This document shows, in pieces, positions 2,401 to 11,010 of a DNA stretch of 64,000 nucleotides (its first letter is position 1; every line of letters begins with the position of its first letter). The DNA is from Marinibacterium anthonyi. Its GTDB lineage: Bacteria > Pseudomonadota > Alphaproteobacteria > Rhodobacterales > Rhodobacteraceae. Where the stretch lies: assembly GCA_003217735.2 (NCBI GenBank), contig CP031585.1, forward strand, positions 4,265,501-4,329,500. Reading direction: 5' to 3'. The notes under the pieces were generated by a model. It ran no database searches. It worked only from the letters and a program-made list of their open reading frames with translations, and was not told where the DNA came from. A program made the translations under genes and the position numbers.

Positions 2401-2605
2401 CGCGTTCGTCCTTCCGGCGGATGGTACGGGTTGCAGGCTGCTTTGACGGGCAGGAGTTGGAGCCAGCGTTGTCACAACCGTTGAATTCCGCAGGCGCGCC
2501 GCAGCGTTTGCGTTGAAATTGCACGCCCCGGGCTCGACGCTGGGCGCCCGTCCCCTTAGCTGCCCAGCTGCGCCTGGCGCTATTTTCGACAAGGACTTTT
2601 CCAAG

Positions 2606-3115
2606 ATGATCTGGTTCATCCTCCTGGCCATTGCGGTCCGGCTGGCCACCCTGGCGGTCTCGATCCGCAACGAGGCGCGCATGAAGGCCGAAGGCGCGCA
2701 CGAATACGACGCCGGCACCACCCGGACGCTGGCCGCGGCACATGTGGCCTTCTACCTTGCCGCAATCGCCGAAGGCCTCCTGGGCCAGTCGGGGTTCGAT
2801 ACCGCGACGCTGGCCGGGCTGTGCCTTTATGCCTTTGCAATCGCGGCCCTTTTCTGGGTGATCGCCGTGCTGGGCCGGTTCTGGACGGTCAAGCTGATCC
2901 TGGCGACGGATCATGCGCTGGTGACCAACCGGGTGTTCCGCGGCCTGCGCCACCCGAACTACTTCCTGAACATCATCCCCGAACTGGTCGGCCTGGCGCT
3001 GGTCATGCACGCCTGGATCACCCTGGCGGTGGGACTTCCGGTCTACCTGGTCGTCCTCGCCATCCGGATCCGCCAGGAAGAGGACATCATGCGGTTCCGG
3101 TTCGCCGGCTACTGA
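2606..3115 (+). CDS. Isoprenylcysteine carboxyl methyltransferase (ICMT) family membrane protein
   Basis: Membrane protein of 169 aa with four or five hydrophobic segments. The ICMT/PEMT signature RHPNYFLN lies around residues 113-120, followed by a C-terminal basic/acidic tail (RIRQEEDIM) that forms part of the SAM pocket in this family. The ATG at 2606 follows AAGGACTTTTCCAAG and begins at a membrane segment (MIWFILLAIAV), so it is preferred over upstream starts. Bacterial members such as YpbQ methylate small or lipid substrates that are mostly unknown; prenylated-protein methylation is not implied. It is divergent from a second methyltransferase across about 205 bp. Confidence 0.8.
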   Translation: MIWFILLAIAVRLATLAVSIRNEARMKAEGAHEYDAGTTRTLAAAHVAFYLAAIAEGLLGQSGFDTATLAGLCLYAFAIAALFWVIAVLGRFWTVKLILATDHALVTNRVFRGLRHPNYFLNIIPELVGLALVMHAWITLAVGLPVYLVVLAIRIRQEEDIMRFRFAGY

Positions 3116-3201: not shown

Positions 3202-3798
3202 ATGGCCAATTGCCCCAATTGCGGAGACCAGGTCGCCGAGGCGCTTGCCACGGCGCCGATGGCGGTCTGTCCGTCCTGCCTGACGACGGTCTACGTGCTG
3301 GACGGAAGGCTGCTGGCGGCCGGAGACGCCGGCCAGATGCACGACGCCCCCCTGCTGATCGCCCTGGGCGACCGGGTGCGGGTGGACGGGCGCTGGTACG
3401 CGGCGGTGGGCCATGCAAGGTTCGACTATGGCCCCGGCTGGTGGGACGAATTCTGGGCCGAGGACGATCAGGGTGCGGGCCTGTGGATTTCCATCGACGA
3501 GGGCGACGTGGTGGCGCAGGCGGCCCTGGACGACCCGCCCGCCGCACCGGTCCCGCGCCGGGTCGGAGCCATCGTGTCCTGGCGCGACGGCTACCGGGTG
3601 ACCGAGGTGGACAAGGGCCGCTGCATTGCCCTGCGCGGACGCTTCCCCGAACGGCTGGCCGTGGGCGACACCCACGACTACGTCAACTGCATGTCCGAAA
3701 CCGGCGCGCTGCTGTCGGGGGAAACCCATGCCGGACAGACCGAATGGTTCCTGGGCACATGGCTTGATCCCTTCGAGATGGAGATCGCCCGCGCATGA
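3202..3798 (+). CDS. Zinc-ribbon DUF4178 protein, short
   Basis: Protein of 198 aa. The N-terminus has a CxxC...CxxC zinc ribbon (Cys4, Cys7, Cys23, Cys26). A beta-rich DUF4178-like domain follows, with the recurring pattern 'W.A.GHARFDYGPGWWDEFW' around residues 70-90 and a second half ending in the aromatic 'EWFLGTWL'. There is no signal peptide or membrane segment, so it should sit on the cytoplasmic face. It overlaps the next gene by 4 bp (ATGA), which implies translational coupling. Function unknown; DUF4178 proteins often neighbour DUF350 and polyamine-synthase-like genes, as here. Confidence 0.75.
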   Translation: MANCPNCGDQVAEALATAPMAVCPSCLTTVYVLDGRLLAAGDAGQMHDAPLLIALGDRVRVDGRWYAAVGHARFDYGPGWWDEFWAEDDQGAGLWISIDEGDVVAQAALDDPPAAPVPRRVGAIVSWRDGYRVTEVDKGRCIALRGRFPERLAVGDTHDYVNCMSETGALLSGETHAGQTEWFLGTWLDPFEMEIARA

Positions 3799-5072
3799 CA
3801 TCGGACGTGCGGTCCATCAACTGCCCCGCCTGCGGCGCCGGCCAGACGATCCTGGGCGGCGGGCGGGTGGAAACCCATGTCTGCCCCTATTGCGGCAGCG
3901 CGCTGGACGCGCTGCGCGACTTCGCCATCCTCGCCCGCCATGACCGGCGCAAGCGGGCCGATACCCCGCTGCATCTGGGCGCGCAGGGGACGATCCGGGG
4001 CGTGGGATTTACCGTGATCGGCATCGCCGGCTGGCGCGAGGAATATCGCGGTCAGGTCTGGGCCTGGACCGACCACCAGGTCTATTCGCCTACCCATGGG
4101 TATGGCTGGATCACCCGCGAGGACACCGGCCACTGGACCTTTACCCGCAAGCTGCGCAAATACCCCCGGCACTGGGTCACGCCCACCTCGGTCGAGACAT
4201 CCGAAAGCCGCCCCTATCTGTGGATCGACGGCGAACGCCTGGCCTATTACGAAACATCGACCGCCCGGATCGACAGCCTGGAAGGCGCCTTCAACTGGCA
4301 ACCCAAGGTCGGCGAGACCGCGCAGATGGTCACGTTCGTGGGCGAAGGCCGCATGATCACCCTGTCCGGCACAACGGACGAACGCGAGGTCGAGGAGACC
4401 CGCCTGCTGACGCCCGACGAACAGGCCAGCTTCGGGATTGACGCGCGAGCGAACGGGCGCCACCCGCTGGCCATCGAACCCCGCTGGCGGCATCACGAAT
4501 TCGTTGTCGCGGTGTCGGCCATCTTCATCGTGCTGACCCTCTTCGCCAGCATCCTGCAGGGCGGCAGCGGCGGCAAGCAGCTTGCCAACACCGGCGAGAT
4601 GCCCACATCCGCGCTGCCGATCCAGATCGACTTCGACACCGAGCCCTGGATGCGTCTGGCCAAGTTGCAGCTTCGTTCCGATGTCAACGACGGCTGGGCC
4701 TATTTCGACATCGAGCTGGAAAATGACAAGGGCGACACCATCCTTGGCGGCGGGCGCGAGCTGTCGTATTATTCCGGTGTCGACAACGAGGGCGCCTGGA
4801 CCGAAGGGTCCCGAGATGGCAGCCTGGTCTTCCCGGTCGAAGGCCACACGCATTACACGATGACCATCGAGATGCCCGAGTACGGATCGGGCGAGACCGG
4901 AACACTCCAGACCAACCACATCTTCCGGGCCCATGTTGTCGGGCTGAGTTTCAGCTGGCGGCCACTGGCGGCCACTGTCGGGGTCTTTGCGCTGTTCATG
5001 GCGGCAACGCTGGGCTGGGAACTGCGCCGGCGGCGACGGATGCTTGCCGGGTCCGACTGGACGGAGGATTGA
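3795..5072 (+). CDS. Zinc-ribbon DUF4178 membrane protein
   Basis: Protein of 425 aa. An N-terminal zinc ribbon (Cys10, Cys13, Cys30, Cys33) is followed by a DUF4178 domain (about 55-200; WREEYRGQVW, then THGYGWITRE). A transmembrane helix lies near 232-255 (FVVAVSAIFIVLTLF), an exported beta domain at about 270-385, and a second helix near 390-410 before an arginine-rich tail. The architecture suggests a cytoplasmic sensor or ligand domain linked to an outer-face beta domain. It is coupled to the preceding DUF4178 gene and followed 4 bp later by a 51-codon gene. No enzymatic motif is seen. Confidence 0.8.
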   Translation: MTSDVRSINCPACGAGQTILGGGRVETHVCPYCGSALDALRDFAILARHDRRKRADTPLHLGAQGTIRGVGFTVIGIAGWREEYRGQVWAWTDHQVYSPTHGYGWITREDTGHWTFTRKLRKYPRHWVTPTSVETSESRPYLWIDGERLAYYETSTARIDSLEGAFNWQPKVGETAQMVTFVGEGRMITLSGTTDEREVEETRLLTPDEQASFGIDARANGRHPLAIEPRWRHHEFVVAVSAIFIVLTLFASILQGGSGGKQLANTGEMPTSALPIQIDFDTEPWMRLAKLQLRSDVNDGWAYFDIELENDKGDTILGGGRELSYYSGVDNEGAWTEGSRDGSLVFPVEGHTHYTMTIEMPEYGSGETGTLQTNHIFRAHVVGLSFSWRPLAATVGVFALFMAATLGWELRRRRRMLAGSDWTED

Positions 5073-5076
5073 CGCC

Positions 5077-5232
5077 ATGAGCCCCGCCCGCCTGATATTC
5101 ATCCTGCTGTGCTGCGCCATCCTGGGCGGCGGTTTCTACCTGTCGTCCCGAGGTGTCTGGGGGGCCAGCGCCGGGGTGACATCGATCCGCGCGGGCAGCG
5201 CGGGGGCCGCCATCGGCGGCCGTGTCAAATGA
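5077..5232 (+). CDS. Small membrane protein, 51 aa
   Basis: Short reading frame that starts 4 bp after the DUF4178 stop, behind GGAGGATTGACGCC. It encodes one hydrophobic segment (LIFILLCCAILGGGFYL), then a glycine/serine/alanine tail ending in GGRVK. It could be a secreted peptide or a single-pass subunit of the DUF4178/DUF350 complex. Its position, spacing and ribosome site are the evidence; I know of no homologue. Confidence 0.6.
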   Translation: MSPARLIFILLCCAILGGGFYLSSRGVWGASAGVTSIRAGSAGAAIGGRVK

Positions 5233-5247
5233 CGAAAGGAGACCCCG

Positions 5248-5463
5248 ATGGGGACCATCCAGATCGCTGAGATCATCAGCACGATCTTCTACACCTTCCT
5301 GGGCCTTGGCCTGCTGGTGATCTGCTGGCTGGTGATCGAGGCGATAACGCCCCTGTCGCTGCGCAAGGAGCTGGAGGAGGACCAGAACACCGCCATCGCC
5401 ATCGTGATCGGCGCGCTGTTCCTGTCGGTCTCGATCATCATCGCGGCCGTGATCCTGTCTTGA
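5248..5463 (+). CDS. DUF350 family membrane protein
   Basis: Membrane protein of 71 aa with two hydrophobic helices separated by a charged loop (SLRKELEEDQNTA), the pattern of one DUF350 repeat (YjfL/UPF0719-type proteins usually carry two or more). The start at 5248 follows GAAAGGAGACCCCG, a strong ribosome site. Its stop overlaps the TTG start of the next gene. With only one repeat it would have to oligomerise. It sits between DUF4178 and aminopropyltransferase genes, a grouping seen in other bacteria, but the role of the family is unknown. Confidence 0.8.
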   Translation: MGTIQIAEIISTIFYTFLGLGLLVICWLVIEAITPLSLRKELEEDQNTAIAIVIGALFLSVSIIIAAVILS

Positions 5464-6992
5464 CCTCGGACCGCGCCGGGCTGGTCTGGCTGCTGGCGGC
5501 GACCTTCCTGGTCGCCATCGCCGGGCTGGTCTATGAACTGATCGCCGCCACCGCGTCCAGCTACCTGCTGGGCGACAGTGTCAGGCAGTTTTCGCTGGTG
5601 ATCGGGGTGTTCCTCAGTTCCATGGGACTGGGCGCGTGGCTGTCGCGGTACGTGGGCGACCCGGTGACGGGGTTCATCCGGGCGCAGATCGCGCTGGGTC
5701 TGATCGGCGGATTCAGTGCGCCGGTGATCTTTGCCACCTATGCCGGGTATGGCGTCATCGGCCTGCCGCTTTACGGCGCGCTGGTCACCATCGGCGCGTT
5801 GTCGGGGATGGAAATCCCGCTGATCGCCCGCGTCCTGGAAGACATCGGCGCAAGGACCTTCCGCTTTGAAAACGTCCTGACCTTCGATTATCTCGGCGCG
5901 CTCGCCGCCTCCATCGCGTTTCCGCTGCTGATCGTGCCCTACCTTGGTCTGATGAGCGCCTCGCTGGCCTTCGGCTGCCTGAACCTGGTGGTCGCGGGCC
6001 TGTCGCTGTGGATCTTCCGCGACCGCGCCAACCGGGGAACCTGGATCGCCTGGGTGCTGGCCCTGTGCCTCAGCGGCGCGGCGCTGGCGCAATCCGAACG
6101 GCTGGTGTCCGCGCTGGACCGGGCGCTTTACGAAGACGACATCATCTTCGCCGAACACACCCCCTACCAGGCCATCACCGTCACCCGGTTCCGCGACCGC
6201 GTGCGGCTGTTCCTCGACCAGTCGATCCAGTTCGACAGCCGGGACGAGCATCGCTATCACGAGGCGCTGATCCACCCGGTCATGGGCCGCGTCGCGCGGC
6301 CCGCCCATGTGCTGGTGCTGGGCGGCGGCGACGGCATGGCCACGCGCGAGATCCTGCGCCATCCCGAGGTCGAAACCGTCACGCTGGTCGACCTGGACCC
6401 GCGCGTGACCGACCTGTTCCGCGATCACGACGACCTGGCCGCGCTGAACCGCTTTTCGCTGCGCGATCCGCGCGTGAGCATCGTCAACCAGGATGCCTGG
6501 GCCTATCTGTCCGAACCCGGTCCCGCCTACGACGTGATCGTCGCCGACCTGCCCGATCCGCGGAACCTGGCGCTGTCAAAGCTCTATTCGCGGGAATTCT
6601 ACCGCCTGATGGTCCAGCGCCTGGCCTTCGGCGGCGCCTTCGTCACCCAGGCCGGATCGCCGCTGTACGCGCGCGAAGCCTACTGGTCCATTGTCGAAAC
6701 ACTCGAATCCACGCCCAGCCCCGCCGACCCCGGCACGATGCTGCAGGTCACGCCCTACCATGTGCTGGTGCCCAGCTTTGGCGACTGGGGCTTCGCCCTG
6801 GCCCAGCCCGTCGCGCCGGCCGACCGCCCGCTGCCCCTGCCCGACGGCTTGCGGTTCCTGGACCGGCAGGTCTGGGATGCGGCGCAGGTCTTTGACGGCG
6901 ACATCGACCGCGTCGATGTCGCGGTCAATTCGATCCGCACGCACCCGCTGGCGGCCTATTACCAGGCCGGCTGGGATTATTGGTTCGAGTGA
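5460..6992 (+). CDS. Membrane-anchored spermidine-synthase-like aminopropyltransferase
   Basis: Protein of 510 aa. Residues 1-210 hold about six or seven membrane helices; residues 225-510 form a polyamine-synthase fold. The dcSAM/SAM-binding glycine motif is LVLGGGDGMATRE (288-292 GGGDG), followed by the acidic VTLVDLDP. The gatekeeper region reads ADLPDPRNLALSKLYS (362-377) where soluble SpeE has DSTDP. The start is a TTG that overlaps the DUF350 stop (TTGA), so the pair is coupled. The enzyme is probably an aminopropyltransferase acting at the membrane on a diamine or related amine; the acceptor is unknown. The 3' end overlaps the opposite-strand DUF2218 gene by 16 bp. Confidence 0.85.
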   Translation: MTSDRAGLVWLLAATFLVAIAGLVYELIAATASSYLLGDSVRQFSLVIGVFLSSMGLGAWLSRYVGDPVTGFIRAQIALGLIGGFSAPVIFATYAGYGVIGLPLYGALVTIGALSGMEIPLIARVLEDIGARTFRFENVLTFDYLGALAASIAFPLLIVPYLGLMSASLAFGCLNLVVAGLSLWIFRDRANRGTWIAWVLALCLSGAALAQSERLVSALDRALYEDDIIFAEHTPYQAITVTRFRDRVRLFLDQSIQFDSRDEHRYHEALIHPVMGRVARPAHVLVLGGGDGMATREILRHPEVETVTLVDLDPRVTDLFRDHDDLAALNRFSLRDPRVSIVNQDAWAYLSEPGPAYDVIVADLPDPRNLALSKLYSREFYRLMVQRLAFGGAFVTQAGSPLYAREAYWSIVETLESTPSPADPGTMLQVTPYHVLVPSFGDWGFALAQPVAPADRPLPLPDGLRFLDRQVWDAAQVFDGDIDRVDVAVNSIRTHPLAAYYQAGWDYWFE

Positions 6993-7282: not shown

Positions 7283-7427
7283 CCCGCTCTTTCATGTATA
7301 ACCGAATGTTTTAGTCAACTTTCCGCTTGTATGCCCCGGGACGAGGTCCTAGGCAAGTCGGGTGTCCGGATCTGGCGCAGTCCGACCCCGGACCTTACAG
7401 TTGTTCACCCGAGGTTCCGGAGCTGAG

Positions 7428-8339
7428 ATGTTCGCAAATTCCATGGCTGGCCTTGCGCTTGGCGTCACCCTGATCGGCGCGGCCGCGCTGGCCGACGACA
7501 TCACCGTCGACACGGCCCAGGGCCAGGTCACGATCCCGCAATCGCCCAGCCCGCTGGCGGTCTTCGACCTGTCGGCCGTCGATACGCTGACGGCACTTGG
7601 CGTGACGGTCGATGGCATGCCCTCGCCCAGCTACCTCGACTACCTCGCCCCGGTGGCGGAAACCGCCGAGCCCGTCGGCACCCTGTTCGAGCCCGACTTC
7701 GAGGCGCTGGCCCGCATGGCGCCCGGCCTGATCATCGTCGGCGCCCGATCGGCCGCGCAGATCGAACCGCTGTCGCAACTGGCGCCGACCATCGACATGA
7801 GCATCTGGGGCGACGACCAGATCGGCCAGGTCCACGCCCGCCTTGCCGCCTATGGCGAAATCTTCGGGCACGAGGCCGAAGCCTCGGCGCTGGCCAATGC
7901 GCTGGACGACAAGATCGCCCAGGCCGCGGCAGCCGCCGACGGCAAGGGCAACGGTCTGATCCTGCTGACCAATGGCGGCAAGATGTCGGCCTATGGCGCG
8001 GACAGCCGGTTCGGCTGGATCCACCACGCCCTGAACCTGCCCGAAGCGCAGCCGGGGCTGTCCAGCGAGACCCACGGCCAGGGCGTGAGCTTTGAATTCC
8101 TGGCCGAGGTCGATCCCGACTGGCTGCTGGTGATCGACCGGGGGGCCGCCATCGGCCAGGCCGGCGAAGCCGCGCAGGCGACCCTGGACAACAAGCTGGT
8201 GGCCGGGACCAAGGCGGCGCGGAACGGCCACATCGTCTATCTGGACGCGGGCCGGATCTATGTCGCCGGCGGTGGCGTGCAGTCGATGATGGGCACGCTG
8301 GATGAACTGATCGCGGCCTTCTCGGACACCGACAGCTAA
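7428..8339 (+). CDS. Siderophore ABC transporter, periplasmic binding protein
   Basis: Protein of 303 aa from the ATG at 7428, chosen because it gives a Sec signal peptide (GLALGVTLIGAAALADD) and follows TTCCGGAGCTGAG. It has the class III binding-protein fold: an N-lobe (FDLSAVDTLTALGV, PSYLDYLAPV), the long backbone helix near 150, and a C-lobe (WLLVIDRGAA, NGHIVYLDAG). It resembles FatB/VctP/YclQ-type proteins that bind catecholate or hydroxamate ferric chelates. It delivers substrate to the two permeases and ATPase encoded just downstream. Confidence 0.88.
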   Translation: MFANSMAGLALGVTLIGAAALADDITVDTAQGQVTIPQSPSPLAVFDLSAVDTLTALGVTVDGMPSPSYLDYLAPVAETAEPVGTLFEPDFEALARMAPGLIIVGARSAAQIEPLSQLAPTIDMSIWGDDQIGQVHARLAAYGEIFGHEAEASALANALDDKIAQAAAAADGKGNGLILLTNGGKMSAYGADSRFGWIHHALNLPEAQPGLSSETHGQGVSFEFLAEVDPDWLLVIDRGAAIGQAGEAAQATLDNKLVAGTKAARNGHIVYLDAGRIYVAGGGVQSMMGTLDELIAAFSDTDS

Positions 8340-8346
8340 TCCGCCC

Positions 8347-9291
8347 ATGAAAGGCCCCGTCTTCACCGGCCTGATCCTGCTGGTCCTGGTCGGACTGAGC
8401 CTGAGCATCGGGGTCGCCTCGGTCACGTCCGGTGACCTGTCGGTCAGCCTGCTGATGTGGGTCAGCCGCGTGCCGCGCACCTGTGCGGCGCTGCTGGCCG
8501 GCGCCGGGCTGGCGCTGGCCGGGGTGGTCGTGCAGCAGGCCGTGCAGAACCGCTTTGTCGAACCGGGGCTGACGGGCACGTCCGAGGCCGCGATGCTGGG
8601 CCTGCTGGGGATCACGCTGCTGGCCCCCGGCGCGGCGGTTGGCTGGAAGATGACCGTCGCCGCCTGTGCCGCCATGGTCGGGACCGGAGGCTTCCTGTGG
8701 CTGGCCCGCCATGTCCCGCGGTCGGACCCGATGCTGCTGCCGCTGGTGGGGCTGATCTATGCCGGGATCCTGGGCGCCGCGCTGATGTGGGTCGCGTGGA
8801 TGACCGACCTGATGCAATACGTCGGCATCTGGCGGCTGGGCGAATTTTCCGGCATCGTGCAGGGCCGCTACGAATTGCTGTGGATCATCGCGGGGCTGGG
8901 CATCCTGCTTTACGTGCTGGCCGACCGGTTCACCCTGCTGGGCCTGGGCGAGGATCAGGCCCGCAGCCTGGGCCTCGACTATGGCCAGACGCGGACGCTG
9001 GGCCTGGTGATGGTCGCCGCGATCACCGCCGTCGTCGTGGTGACTGTCGGCGCGTTTCCCTTTGTCGGCCTTGTCGTGCCCAACATCGTGTCGCGCTGGC
9101 GCGGCGACAACCTGCGCGCCAACCTGCCCCTGATCGCCGCCGGGGGGGCCGGGCTGGTTCTGGCCGCCGATATCCTCGGCCGCCTCATCGTCTTCCCCTA
9201 CGAAATCCCCGCCGCCACGATCTTTGCCGTCTTCGGATCGGCTGTCTTCCTCTGGCTTCTGTTCGCCGCGCCGGAGCGTCGCCGTGGCTGA
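8347..9291 (+). CDS. Iron-chelate ABC transporter permease, first subunit (FecCD family)
   Basis: Protein of 314 aa with about nine membrane helices and FecCD-family motifs: AGAGLALAGVVVQQ near the N-terminus, EPGLTGTSEAA, the ATPase-coupling region LGEDQARSLGLDYGQTR (about 200-216), and FPFVGLVVPNIVSR. The start is 8 bp after the binding-protein stop. Its stop overlaps the GTG start of the second permease. It pairs with that subunit as a heterodimeric channel, the FatDC or VctDG arrangement. Confidence 0.9.
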   Translation: MKGPVFTGLILLVLVGLSLSIGVASVTSGDLSVSLLMWVSRVPRTCAALLAGAGLALAGVVVQQAVQNRFVEPGLTGTSEAAMLGLLGITLLAPGAAVGWKMTVAACAAMVGTGGFLWLARHVPRSDPMLLPLVGLIYAGILGAALMWVAWMTDLMQYVGIWRLGEFSGIVQGRYELLWIIAGLGILLYVLADRFTLLGLGEDQARSLGLDYGQTRTLGLVMVAAITAVVVVTVGAFPFVGLVVPNIVSRWRGDNLRANLPLIAAGGAGLVLAADILGRLIVFPYEIPAATIFAVFGSAVFLWLLFAAPERRRG

Positions 9292-10249
9292 GATTGCGAT
9301 CCCAACCCGCCGCCTGCCCGTCCTGCCCCTGCTGGCCGGTGTCCTGCTAGTGGGCGTGGTGCTGTTCCTGGGCTGGAACCTCAGCGGGCCGGTCGCCTAC
9401 ATCCTGCACCTGCGCGTCGTCAAACTGGCCGCGCTGGTGCTGGTGGGCGCGGCGATCGGCATGGCGACGGTGCTGTTCCAGACCCTGACCGGCAGCCGCC
9501 TGCTGACCCCCGGGATCGTGGGGTTCGACGCGCTGTTCGTGTTCCTTCAGACGCTGCTGGTCGTCGCCCTGGGCGGGCTTGGCTACACCACCCTGCCACC
9601 CATGGCCAAGTTCCTGACCGAAACCGGGATCCTGATCGCCGCGGCGCTGATGCTCTTCGGGCTGCTGTTGAAGAACGGCGCGCGGGACATGACGCGGATG
9701 ATCCTGGCCGGCGTGATCCTGGGCGTCCTGCTGCGCGGGCTGGCCGAACTGGGTCAGCGCACGCTGGATCCTTCGGCCTTTGCCGTGGTGCAGCAGGCCG
9801 TCTTTGCCAGCTTCACCTCGATCCCGAAGGACCAGCTGGCCATCGCCGCCGCCGTTCTGGCCATCGCCGCCGGGCTGGCGGTGCGGCTGGCCAGCCGGAT
9901 GGATGTCGCGGCGCTGGGGGAACAGACGGCGCGCAGCCTCGGGCTGAACTACCGCCGCACCGCCCTGCAGGCGCTGGCGCTGGTCGCGGCGATGACCGCC
10001 GTGTCGACCGCGCTGGTCGGGCCCATCACCTTCCTTGGCCTGCTTGCCGCCTCCCTTGCCCACCAGGTGGCCGGCACCCATCGCCACGCCGTGGTCCTGC
10101 CCGCCGCCGGGCTGATCGGCGCCGCGATCCTGGTCTACGGGCAATTCGTCTTCGAAAGGCTGCTTGCCATGCAATCCTCGCTTGCCCTGCTGGTCGAATT
10201 CGCCGGTGGCCTGCTGTTCCTGGCCCTTGTCCTGAGGCGCCAGCGATGA
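9284..10249 (+). CDS. Iron-chelate ABC transporter permease, second subunit (FecCD family)
   Basis: Protein of 321 aa. The GTG at 9284 (VAEIAIPTRR) overlaps the end of the first permease and lies behind CCGGAGCGTCGCC; the frame opens further upstream, but that would overlap the neighbour by more than 60 bp. It contains the FecCD signature TPGIVGFDALFVFLQ, the coupling helix LGEQTARSLGLNYRRT and GPITFLGLLAASLAHQ. Its stop overlaps the ATPase start by 4 bp (ATGA). Confidence 0.9.
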   Translation: MAEIAIPTRRLPVLPLLAGVLLVGVVLFLGWNLSGPVAYILHLRVVKLAALVLVGAAIGMATVLFQTLTGSRLLTPGIVGFDALFVFLQTLLVVALGGLGYTTLPPMAKFLTETGILIAAALMLFGLLLKNGARDMTRMILAGVILGVLLRGLAELGQRTLDPSAFAVVQQAVFASFTSIPKDQLAIAAAVLAIAAGLAVRLASRMDVAALGEQTARSLGLNYRRTALQALALVAAMTAVSTALVGPITFLGLLAASLAHQVAGTHRHAVVLPAAGLIGAAILVYGQFVFERLLAMQSSLALLVEFAGGLLFLALVLRRQR

Positions 10250-11010
10250 TCCGCATCACCGATCTGTCCCTGTCCATCCACGGCCACGACATCCTGCGCG
10301 ACGTCTCGGCCGATGTCCCCAAGTCCGGCATCACCGCCCTGATCGGCCCCAACGGGGCGGGCAAATCCTCGCTGCTGCATTGCGTCGCGGGCCTGACCCG
10401 GCCCACCGCCGGGACCGTCTGGGTCGATGGGCTGGACATGTCGACCGCCCGCGACCTGGACCGCGCCCGGACGCTGGCCATCCTGACCCAATCGCAGGCG
10501 GTGTCGAGCCGTCTGACGGTCGAGGACCTGGTGGGCTTTGGCCGCTGGCCCCACCACCAGGGCCGCATCACCGACACCGACCGCGCCATCGTCGACGAGG
10601 CGCTGGCCGCCTTCGCGCTGACCGGCCTGCGGACCCGTTACCTGGACACGCTGTCGGGCGGCCAGCGCCAGCGCGCCTTTGTCGCCATGACCCATGCACA
10701 GGCGACCGGCTGGCTGCTGCTGGACGAGCCGCTGAACGCGCTGGATCCGCGCCATGCCCATGACCTGATGTCGCGCCTGTACGCCATGTCCCGGCCCGGG
10801 CCGGACACCCGCGCCGTGGTGATCGTCGTGCATGACCTGAACGCGGCAGCCGCCTGGGCCGACCGGGTGATCGCCATGAAGGACGGGCGCATCGCCGCCG
10901 CCGGTCCGCGTGACGAGGTGCTGACAGAACCGCTGCTGACCAAGCTGTTCGATACGCCCTTCGGCGTCCATTCCCATGCCGATCGGCTGTTTGTCTTTAC
11001 CAACGGCTAG
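10246..11010 (+). CDS. Iron-chelate ABC transporter ATP-binding protein (FecE-like)
   Basis: Protein of 254 aa with a complete ATPase: Walker A GPNGAGKSS (about 32-40), Q-loop LTQSQ, ABC signature LSGGQRQRAF, Walker B WLLLDEP, and a switch His in VIVVHDLNAA. It energises the two permeases. As the fourth gene of the operon it completes the importer. Its last 14 bp overlap the 3' end of the convergent phosphotransferase-kinase gene. Confidence 0.92.
   Translation: MIRITDLSLSIHGHDILRDVSADVPKSGITALIGPNGAGKSSLLHCVAGLTRPTAGTVWVDGLDMSTARDLDRARTLAILTQSQAVSSRLTVEDLVGFGRWPHHQGRITDTDRAIVDEALAAFALTGLRTRYLDTLSGGQRQRAFVAMTHAQATGWLLLDEPLNALDPRHAHDLMSRLYAMSRPGPDTRAVVIVVHDLNAAAAWADRVIAMKDGRIAAAGPRDEVLTEPLLTKLFDTPFGVHSHADRLFVFTNG

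Follow-up and report, generated by a model that had tools for sequence, protein, structure and literature searches.

A membrane-fused aminopropyltransferase operon of Marinibacterium anthonyi and the C-terminal lysine of its tail protein as a candidate acceptor

The stretch of DNA analysed here (the window) comprises 64,000 nucleotides of Marinibacterium anthonyi (assembly GCA_003217735.2, contig CP031585.1, positions 4,265,501 to 4,329,500, forward strand). Near its start lies a tight membrane operon of five genes, the last of which encodes an aminopropyltransferase that carries a membrane domain at its N terminus (tmAPT) and the third a small protein with a C-terminal Lys. A tail protein ending in exactly this residue recurs in most of the tmAPT loci compared, and its side-chain amine is the acceptor that we propose for the enzyme. 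The genes and domains of the operon are as follows.

3202-3798 (+): DUF4178-A, 198 residues; N-terminal zinc ribbon, CxxC pairs recognized by eye; Pfam PF13785, 3.1e-16
3795-5072 (+): DUF4178-B, 425 residues; invariant CxxC pairs; PF13785 only via the corresponding proteins of relatives
5077-5232 (+): Lys-tail protein, 51 residues; a single membrane helix, then a Gly/Ser/Arg tail, last residue Lys
5248-5463 (+): DUF350 protein, 71 residues; single repeat; Pfam PF03994, 3.5e-12
5460-6992 (+): tmAPT; TTG start; Spermine_synth, 1.9e-33
5460-6104 (+): membrane domain of the tmAPT, residues 1-215; seven hydrophobic segments, as profiled by charge and hydropathy across 101 homologues; AlphaFold2 (AF2) predicted local distance difference test score (pLDDT) 95.2
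6105-6992 (+): aminopropyltransferase domain of the tmAPT, residues 216-510; PF01564, 1.9e-33

The operon and its relatives

The five genes lie at the places given in the initial annotation, with a 4-bp overlap between DUF4178-A and -B, gaps of 4 bp and 15 bp before and after the small open reading frame (ORF) and a 4-bp overlap between the DUF350 and tmAPT genes. The same five-gene order is found in three close relatives, and widely beyond them, which speaks against a chance arrangement. DUF4178-A (60.2 bits against a Pfam cut-off of 25) and the DUF350 protein (47 bits against 26, over one stretch covering about half of the profile) are assigned directly. The Pfam scan of DUF4178-B itself returned no DUF4178 match, but its counterparts in three relatives (G001, G002, G027) do match PF13785, and that of Novosphingobium is named DUF4178 in RefSeq; since these corresponding proteins belong to the family, DUF4178-B is taken to belong there too, as had been proposed for both proteins. 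Its two CxxC pairs (C10, C13, C30, C33) are invariant across 61 aligned homologues. The AF2 model of DUF4178-B (pLDDT 94.8) has a zinc ribbon with a beta domain, a helix (234-256), a further beta domain (261-384), a second helix (388-416) and an Arg-rich end; because two helices flank it, the 261-384 domain is predicted to be periplasmic. Assignment of a function from the fold was dropped, the query TM-scores being at most 0.24 among the 50 Foldseek matches listed, and the toxins and capsids among these probably reflect a chance likeness of beta-rich folds.

The small protein matched no Pfam or NCBIfam family, and none of ten counterparts scanned in Pfam was above cut-off. The earlier description of it as unannotated does not hold for every such gene, as the Novosphingobium counterpart has a RefSeq entry as a hypothetical protein. 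Changes in the ORF are mainly synonymous, with a median ratio of nonsynonymous to synonymous change (pN/pS) of 0.27 in 19 pairs picked for pN <0.25, at least one of them undefined; the window gene gives 0.40, 0.30 and 0.57 against its counterparts in L028, L029 and L030, respectively.

For comparison, a scan of public genomes with an alignment of the membrane domain found at least 585 related places, the best 80 of which were kept. These 80, the window and nine more loci make up the 90 annotated initially, among which DUF4178 occurs in 78, DUF350 in 74 and tmAPT in 88. Another 20 loci came from a sample of the phylum, in which 33 of 398 genomes had a match, in a few cases a weak one, to the profile of the membrane domain (E 1e-10). 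Besides the 20 fetched at length, these 33 comprise the window genome (G000) and G048, both already included, six strong and two weak members seen in flanks of ~1.5 kb only, and three weak ones without a locus. Subtracting two of the 110 annotated loci without a tmAPT match, L122 and L102 (where the tmAPT lies at a contig end and a Lys tail is present), leaves the 108 tmAPT loci counted below; they span at least seven phyla, as named in the record titles, with Actinobacteria outside the sample.

The full-length enzyme is sporadic, being above the family cut-off in 7 of 385 genomes of the class. DUF4178 was found in five of 61 relatives (G000, G001, G002, G027, G048), all five of which also have a tmAPT; a sixth tmAPT genome, G038, has no DUF4178 match and keeps a Lys-ended lipoprotein. 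The window genome itself (6.8 Mb, 13 contigs) has a speD gene (contig C1, position 2903927) that adjoins a gene for soluble SpeE, far from the operon.

The C-terminal residue of the tail proteins

The slot between DUF4178-B and DUF350/tmAPT mostly holds a protein with one helix and a Gly/Ser/Arg/His tail, the last residue of which is exactly Lys. The residues preceding it vary between groups, alphaproteobacterial tails often ending in GRVK or GRIK, those listed from Bacteroidota and Verrucomicrobia in HK and those listed from Campylobacterota and Acidobacteria in GK. A survey of neighbourhoods for a small gene in this slot, as suggested in the initial annotation, was made blind, in that the ORF was picked by hydropathy alone and its end residue ignored. 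An ORF was obtained from 80 of the 108 loci, the remaining 28 having no slot or no passing ORF; 74 of the 80 end in Lys and none in Arg, as compared with 130 Lys ends among 2196 membrane ORFs of similar size elsewhere in the same loci. Counting distinct ORFs only, 52 of 58 end in Lys. Five of the six picks with another end overlap a Lys-ended ORF in a different frame (L106, L108, L111, L147, L181); the sixth, L186, does not.

When the 74 blind picks are supplemented by tails that were spotted by eye or searched for by their Lys end, a Lys-ended tail (anchored, exported or fused to DUF4178) is present in 102 of the 108 loci or their genomes, or 103 with L131. Together with the frequencies of DUF4178 (78/90) and DUF350 (74/90), this rules out that conservation is restricted to individual genes. 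In nine loci (L183, L184, L189, L191, L192, L197, L198, L135, L231) the tail is fused to the C terminus of DUF4178, which ties the two together. In L032 and L195 its carrier is, as judged by eye, a lipoprotein or secreted protein, and in five others it stands apart within the same locus. In L189, L191 and L198, DUF350 and tmAPT are separated by a long ORF that by eye resembles a TonB-dependent receptor.

Summed over 102 tails, the 25 positions preceding the last residue hold 240 Arg and 28 Lys. Selection for charge alone would allow Arg at the end, but these Arg-rich tails end in Lys and the blind picks never end in Arg, so that it seems to be the side-chain amine, not the charge, that is selected. 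The last residue is likewise kept by every one of the 72 tails diverged at >40% of the final 25 positions, although Lys had served as a criterion in finding those from outside the slot.

Plasmid records were examined after the rule had been formed, with a pattern that required a Lys or Arg end. Of 13 records, 12 with most of the query were used, and in each of them a Lys tail accompanies DUF4178, DUF350 or tmAPT; they represent fewer independent cases, as they include two Tritonibacter, three Burkholderia, three Novosphingobium and two Alteromonas records. One, from Gemmatirosa, adds the phylum Gemmatimonadota. On the thirteenth, a Rhodovulum plasmid, just the final half of a tmAPT is present (L266:5007-5711), annotated as a hypothetical protein. 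On an Alteromonas plasmid, a gene named as a toxic anion resistance protein (L265:8527-9633) lies between speD and DUF4178. All six strong members of the phylum sample seen only in their flanks also have a Lys tail, although some look identical to loci already named.

A different residue is found beside ATP-grasp ligases. The comparison comprised the 30 best-scoring loci from 59 genomes matching GSP_synth (PF03738), out of 299; the window genome has no match to this family at E 1e-20. By a blind rule, taking the longest ORF just upstream of the ligase, 23 of 30 picks end in Gly and none in Lys; the other seven end in Tyr (two), Ala (two), Phe, Ser and Leu, some of them clearly being different genes. 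By a pattern that itself requires Gly, 25 of the 30 loci have a Gly-(Phe/Tyr/Trp)-Gly...Gly end. The proteins upstream of the ligases in these loci (L234-L263) share an end of the R-G-G-F-G...G type, likely the acceptor tail of peptide-spermidine ligases. In Escherichia coli YjfM ends in GHWGG and YgiB in SRSMGG, beside YjfC and YgiC, respectively, both of which RefSeq names peptide--spermidine ligase, a name said to go back to Pederick et al. 2023. Enzyme type and tail end thus go together, the ligase with a free Gly carboxylate and the aminopropyltransferase with a free Lys amine.

The enzyme, its predicted compartment and its gene neighbours

The tmAPT belongs to the polyamine aminopropyltransferase family PRK03612/NF002956 (602.5 bits in NCBIfam, against a cut-off of 472), and the fold of its catalytic domain matches soluble synthases (VIA-align Z 34.8 to 1uir; Foldseek 2.3e-15 to 6bq2); judged by sequence and fold, this domain is a clear aminopropyltransferase. 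Residues Q257, D262, G288, G290, D291, G292, D313 and D345 are kept in at least 99 of 101 tmAPTs, and G289 in 96. We take these to form the site for decarboxylated S-adenosylmethionine (dcSAM), which on this basis appears intact.

The ADLPDP motif, pointed out earlier as replacing the usual gatekeeper, is present and is a family feature, all 101 tmAPTs having D-(L/F)-P-D-P, followed by K/R-L-(Y/F). Most of the soluble SpeE proteins compared have D-S-T-D-P-x-G-P (in 38, S in 33, T in 30, G in 37 and P in 34); the tmAPTs do not conform to this pattern, the G-P pair being missing in all 101. Their gatekeeper partly resembles those of plant thermospermine synthase and the Pyrobaculum aminopropyltransferase. 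The portion covered here of a 2024 survey of bacterial aminopropyltransferases (JBC 2024) does not treat the membrane-fused enzymes.

With regard to compartment, the loops at residues 61-75, 121-135 and 185-195 of the tmAPT are rich in Lys/Arg (~2.4, 2.9 and 2.3 per protein across the 101 homologues), as compared with 0.4-0.6 for the intervening loops. This alternation, combined with seven hydrophobic segments, predicts that the N terminus is inside and the catalytic domain outside the cytoplasm. Cysteine content points the same way, the catalytic domains of tmAPTs having 0.20 per 100 residues and soluble SpeE 1.10, although the SpeE control (n=38) is from one class and its relatives and the tmAPTs are from many phyla. 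Cysteine-free catalytic domains are found in 61 of 101 tmAPTs, including 39 of 40 from alphaproteobacteria, and in none of the 38 SpeE proteins. The small proteins are likewise predicted, from charge in 74 of them, to have their N termini inside and C termini outside. Catalytic domain and tail would thus both be extracytoplasmic, as predicted from loop charges and cysteine scarcity.

As to other genes, speD lies within 48 of the 108 loci and PspA within nine; around the window operon, no PspA match was obtained among the five operon genes and three flanking proteins scanned, all of other families. A flavin oxidoreductase is present in 38 of the 108 (e.g. L031, L065, L264), in 31 cases with a loose twin-arginine pattern near its start; a Pfam scan of two of these proteins gave a match to Amino_oxidase for one. 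In the window, a membrane protein of the isoprenylcysteine carboxyl methyltransferase (ICMT) family type (2513-3115, +) lies 86 bp upstream of the operon, and the genes at 7362-11010 (+) resemble, by eye from the ORF translations, an iron-siderophore ABC transporter with binding protein, two permeases and ATPase.

Possible acceptors and comparison with known systems

The reading that we favour is that the tmAPT aminopropylates the side-chain amine of the C-terminal Lys of the tail, which would act as a putrescine mimic; from comparisons of sequence we put its probability at about one in two. The initial annotation suggested a membrane-linked amine or a phospholipid as the acceptor. The dcSAM site is kept and the former fits well, but the best candidate is the terminal Lys, a phospholipid being less likely; a recurring gene for lipid chemistry was not noticed in the locus neighbourhoods viewed, no search having been aimed at such genes. 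Similarly, the small protein was thought to be a subunit, and it, or a counterpart, does accompany the enzyme in 103 of 108 loci or their genomes, but because its terminal Lys is the best acceptor candidate, it looks like a substrate or tethered ligand rather than a mere subunit.

The operon would then encode a system devoted to extending a membrane-anchored tail at its end with aminopropyl groups. SpeD would make dcSAM in the cytoplasm, in the window genome from the distant speD gene, and the donor would pass through the enzyme's own membrane domain to a catalytic domain on the outer face of the inner membrane; alternatively, the tmAPT may meet the tail before or during its export. The Lys side chain, a four-carbon primary amine like putrescine, would enter the pocket and be extended there by at least one aminopropyl unit, so that a polyamine tethered to the membrane results. 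The DUF350 and two DUF4178 proteins may hold or regulate the pair of enzyme and tail; the roles suggested for them in the initial annotation, with DUF350 as a channel and DUF4178 as a sensor, are putative. The flavin oxidoreductase with an export-like start, found in about a third of loci, may act on the aminopropyl product, e.g. by oxidizing it. A wider generalization, which we advance tentatively and with less assurance than the choice of acceptor, is that in many phyla a periplasm-facing aminopropyltransferase builds a polyamine on the C-terminal Lys of a dedicated tethered protein, with dcSAM as an extracytoplasmic donor entering via the enzyme's membrane domain, and that ATP-grasp ligases reach a like product via a C-terminal Gly-Gly.

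Several observations weigh against the favoured reading. We know of no case of dcSAM outside the cytoplasm. AF2 draws residues 136-185 of the tmAPT as a single helix; if these form one span, there are six spans and the catalytic domain is cytoplasmic, although the conserved P160 and G163 midway in this stretch, with the charge pattern, make a turn within it likely. Lys/Arg374 in the gatekeeper loop, present in 100 of 101 tmAPTs, was considered as a special clamp for the C-terminal carboxylate, a proposal weakened by K-L-Y at the same place in plant thermospermine synthase, the existence of this counterpart meaning that the residue is not diagnostic. Seven of the 103 tails lie outside the locus, beside a DUF4178 gene elsewhere in the genome. 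No tail was found in four of the 108 loci (L115, L128, L130, L186), two of which, L128 and L130, also lack DUF4178, and in L141 there is a candidate Lys-ended ORF adjoining DUF350 that was not counted. Two weak members of the phylum sample, L177 and L178, have no Lys tail within ~1.5 kb, and three more provided no locus.

The alternative that carries most weight, though we consider it a good deal less probable than Lys modification, is that the tmAPT produces, at the membrane, a free polyamine of the usual kind (spermidine, thermospermine or the like), and that the Lys tail has a structural or regulatory role, lying within or close to the active site as a tethered mimic of substrate or product. 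The family is named polyamine aminopropyltransferase and the tmAPT is above its cut-off, most of the catalytic residues compared are those of SpeE, the gatekeeper is like those of the plant and Pyrobaculum enzymes, and a regulatory tail might also require an exact C terminus. However, a soluble SpeE is already encoded next to SpeD in the window genome, and a regulatory tail leaves unexplained the Gly-Gly ends beside peptide-spermidine ligases.

These same ligase-type ends, and the tie to the tmAPT, are not explained either if an L,D-transpeptidase links the terminal Lys to peptidoglycan, so tying the membrane complex to the wall, a reading that we regard as unlikely. Braun's lipoprotein, an exported protein with an invariant Lys end, is the precedent, and the tail resembles it in being Lys-ended and, by charge, predicted to be exported. 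Genes with a YkuD domain were found in 24 of 26 tail genomes tested, the two without a match (L138, L146) being metagenome-assembled and perhaps incomplete, but a YkuD-like catalytic motif was found, by regular expression only, in none of the 108 loci, and the tails are short (median 33 residues past the helix in 91 short proteins). That the tail is a His-, Arg- and Gly-rich element binding metal or anions, with a terminal Lys left over from common descent and without chemistry, seems more improbable still. There is His in many tails (89 in 2550 residues), but this proposal sits poorly with retention of the last residue in the 72 diverged tails and in 52 of 58 distinct blind ORFs, and with occurrence of the tail as micro-protein, DUF4178 fusion and lipoprotein.

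A search of one open-access collection found no function assigned to this operon and no report of the Lys-end rule, DUF4178 appearing in one paper. The operon type is partly in print, in the covered part of a study of PspA-type operons (mSystems 2024, PMC11237479), and for the Lys rule no earlier report was found. The rule names a concrete candidate substrate for a widespread family, with at least 585 related places in one scan, whose members are annotated by default as makers of free polyamines, and gives a testable job to the small hypothetical proteins beside them. If the proposal is true, there would be a new protein modification and an extracytoplasmic use of dcSAM; a polyamine on a membrane-tethered C terminus would also provide a common logic for two operon families that the same study, as far as covered here, links to envelope stress.

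The E. coli yjfIJKLMC and ygiBC operons resemble that of the window in having a membrane or lipoprotein tail protein beside an enzyme joining polyamine and peptide (yjf also has PspA and DUF350), but differ in that the enzyme is an ATP-grasp ligase and the tail has a Gly-Gly carboxylate end, as opposed to an aminopropyltransferase and a Lys amine end. The part of PMC11237479 covered here describes an operon with a 7TM-spermine synthase, DUF350, the lipoprotein Ctha_1186 and DUF4178, linked to PspA/CesT, and raises the possibility that other substrates are aminopropylated. No model of the Ctha_1186 domain came up in the Pfam scans of the window proteins and of the small-protein counterparts. 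The two operons share tmAPT, DUF350, DUF4178 and an extra small or lipoprotein gene; that of the window has no PspA/CesT noted alongside, two DUF4178 genes and the 51-residue tail protein in place of the lipoprotein, and that part of the paper contains neither a C-terminal Lys nor a named substrate. As described in the covered part of a report on SUMO (Mol Cell Proteomics 2025, PMC12270671), spermidine is attached to the C-terminal Gly-Gly carboxylate, thus placing a polyamine at the extreme C terminus of a protein, but by eukaryotic E1/E2 chemistry and not through transfer of an aminopropyl group onto Lys.

Soluble spermidine and thermospermine synthases (1uir, 6bq2, 6qmm) have the same fold and dcSAM site as the tmAPT, but lack the membrane domain and act on free amines, and all 38 SpeE proteins compared contain cysteine. 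In its proposed chemistry the tmAPT would resemble deoxyhypusine synthase, which transfers part of a polyamine onto one lysine of one dedicated protein, eIF5A; that enzyme is unrelated, and transfers an aminobutyl group from spermidine to an internal lysine in the cytosol, whereas the tmAPT would add aminopropyl groups to a C-terminal Lys tethered to the membrane.

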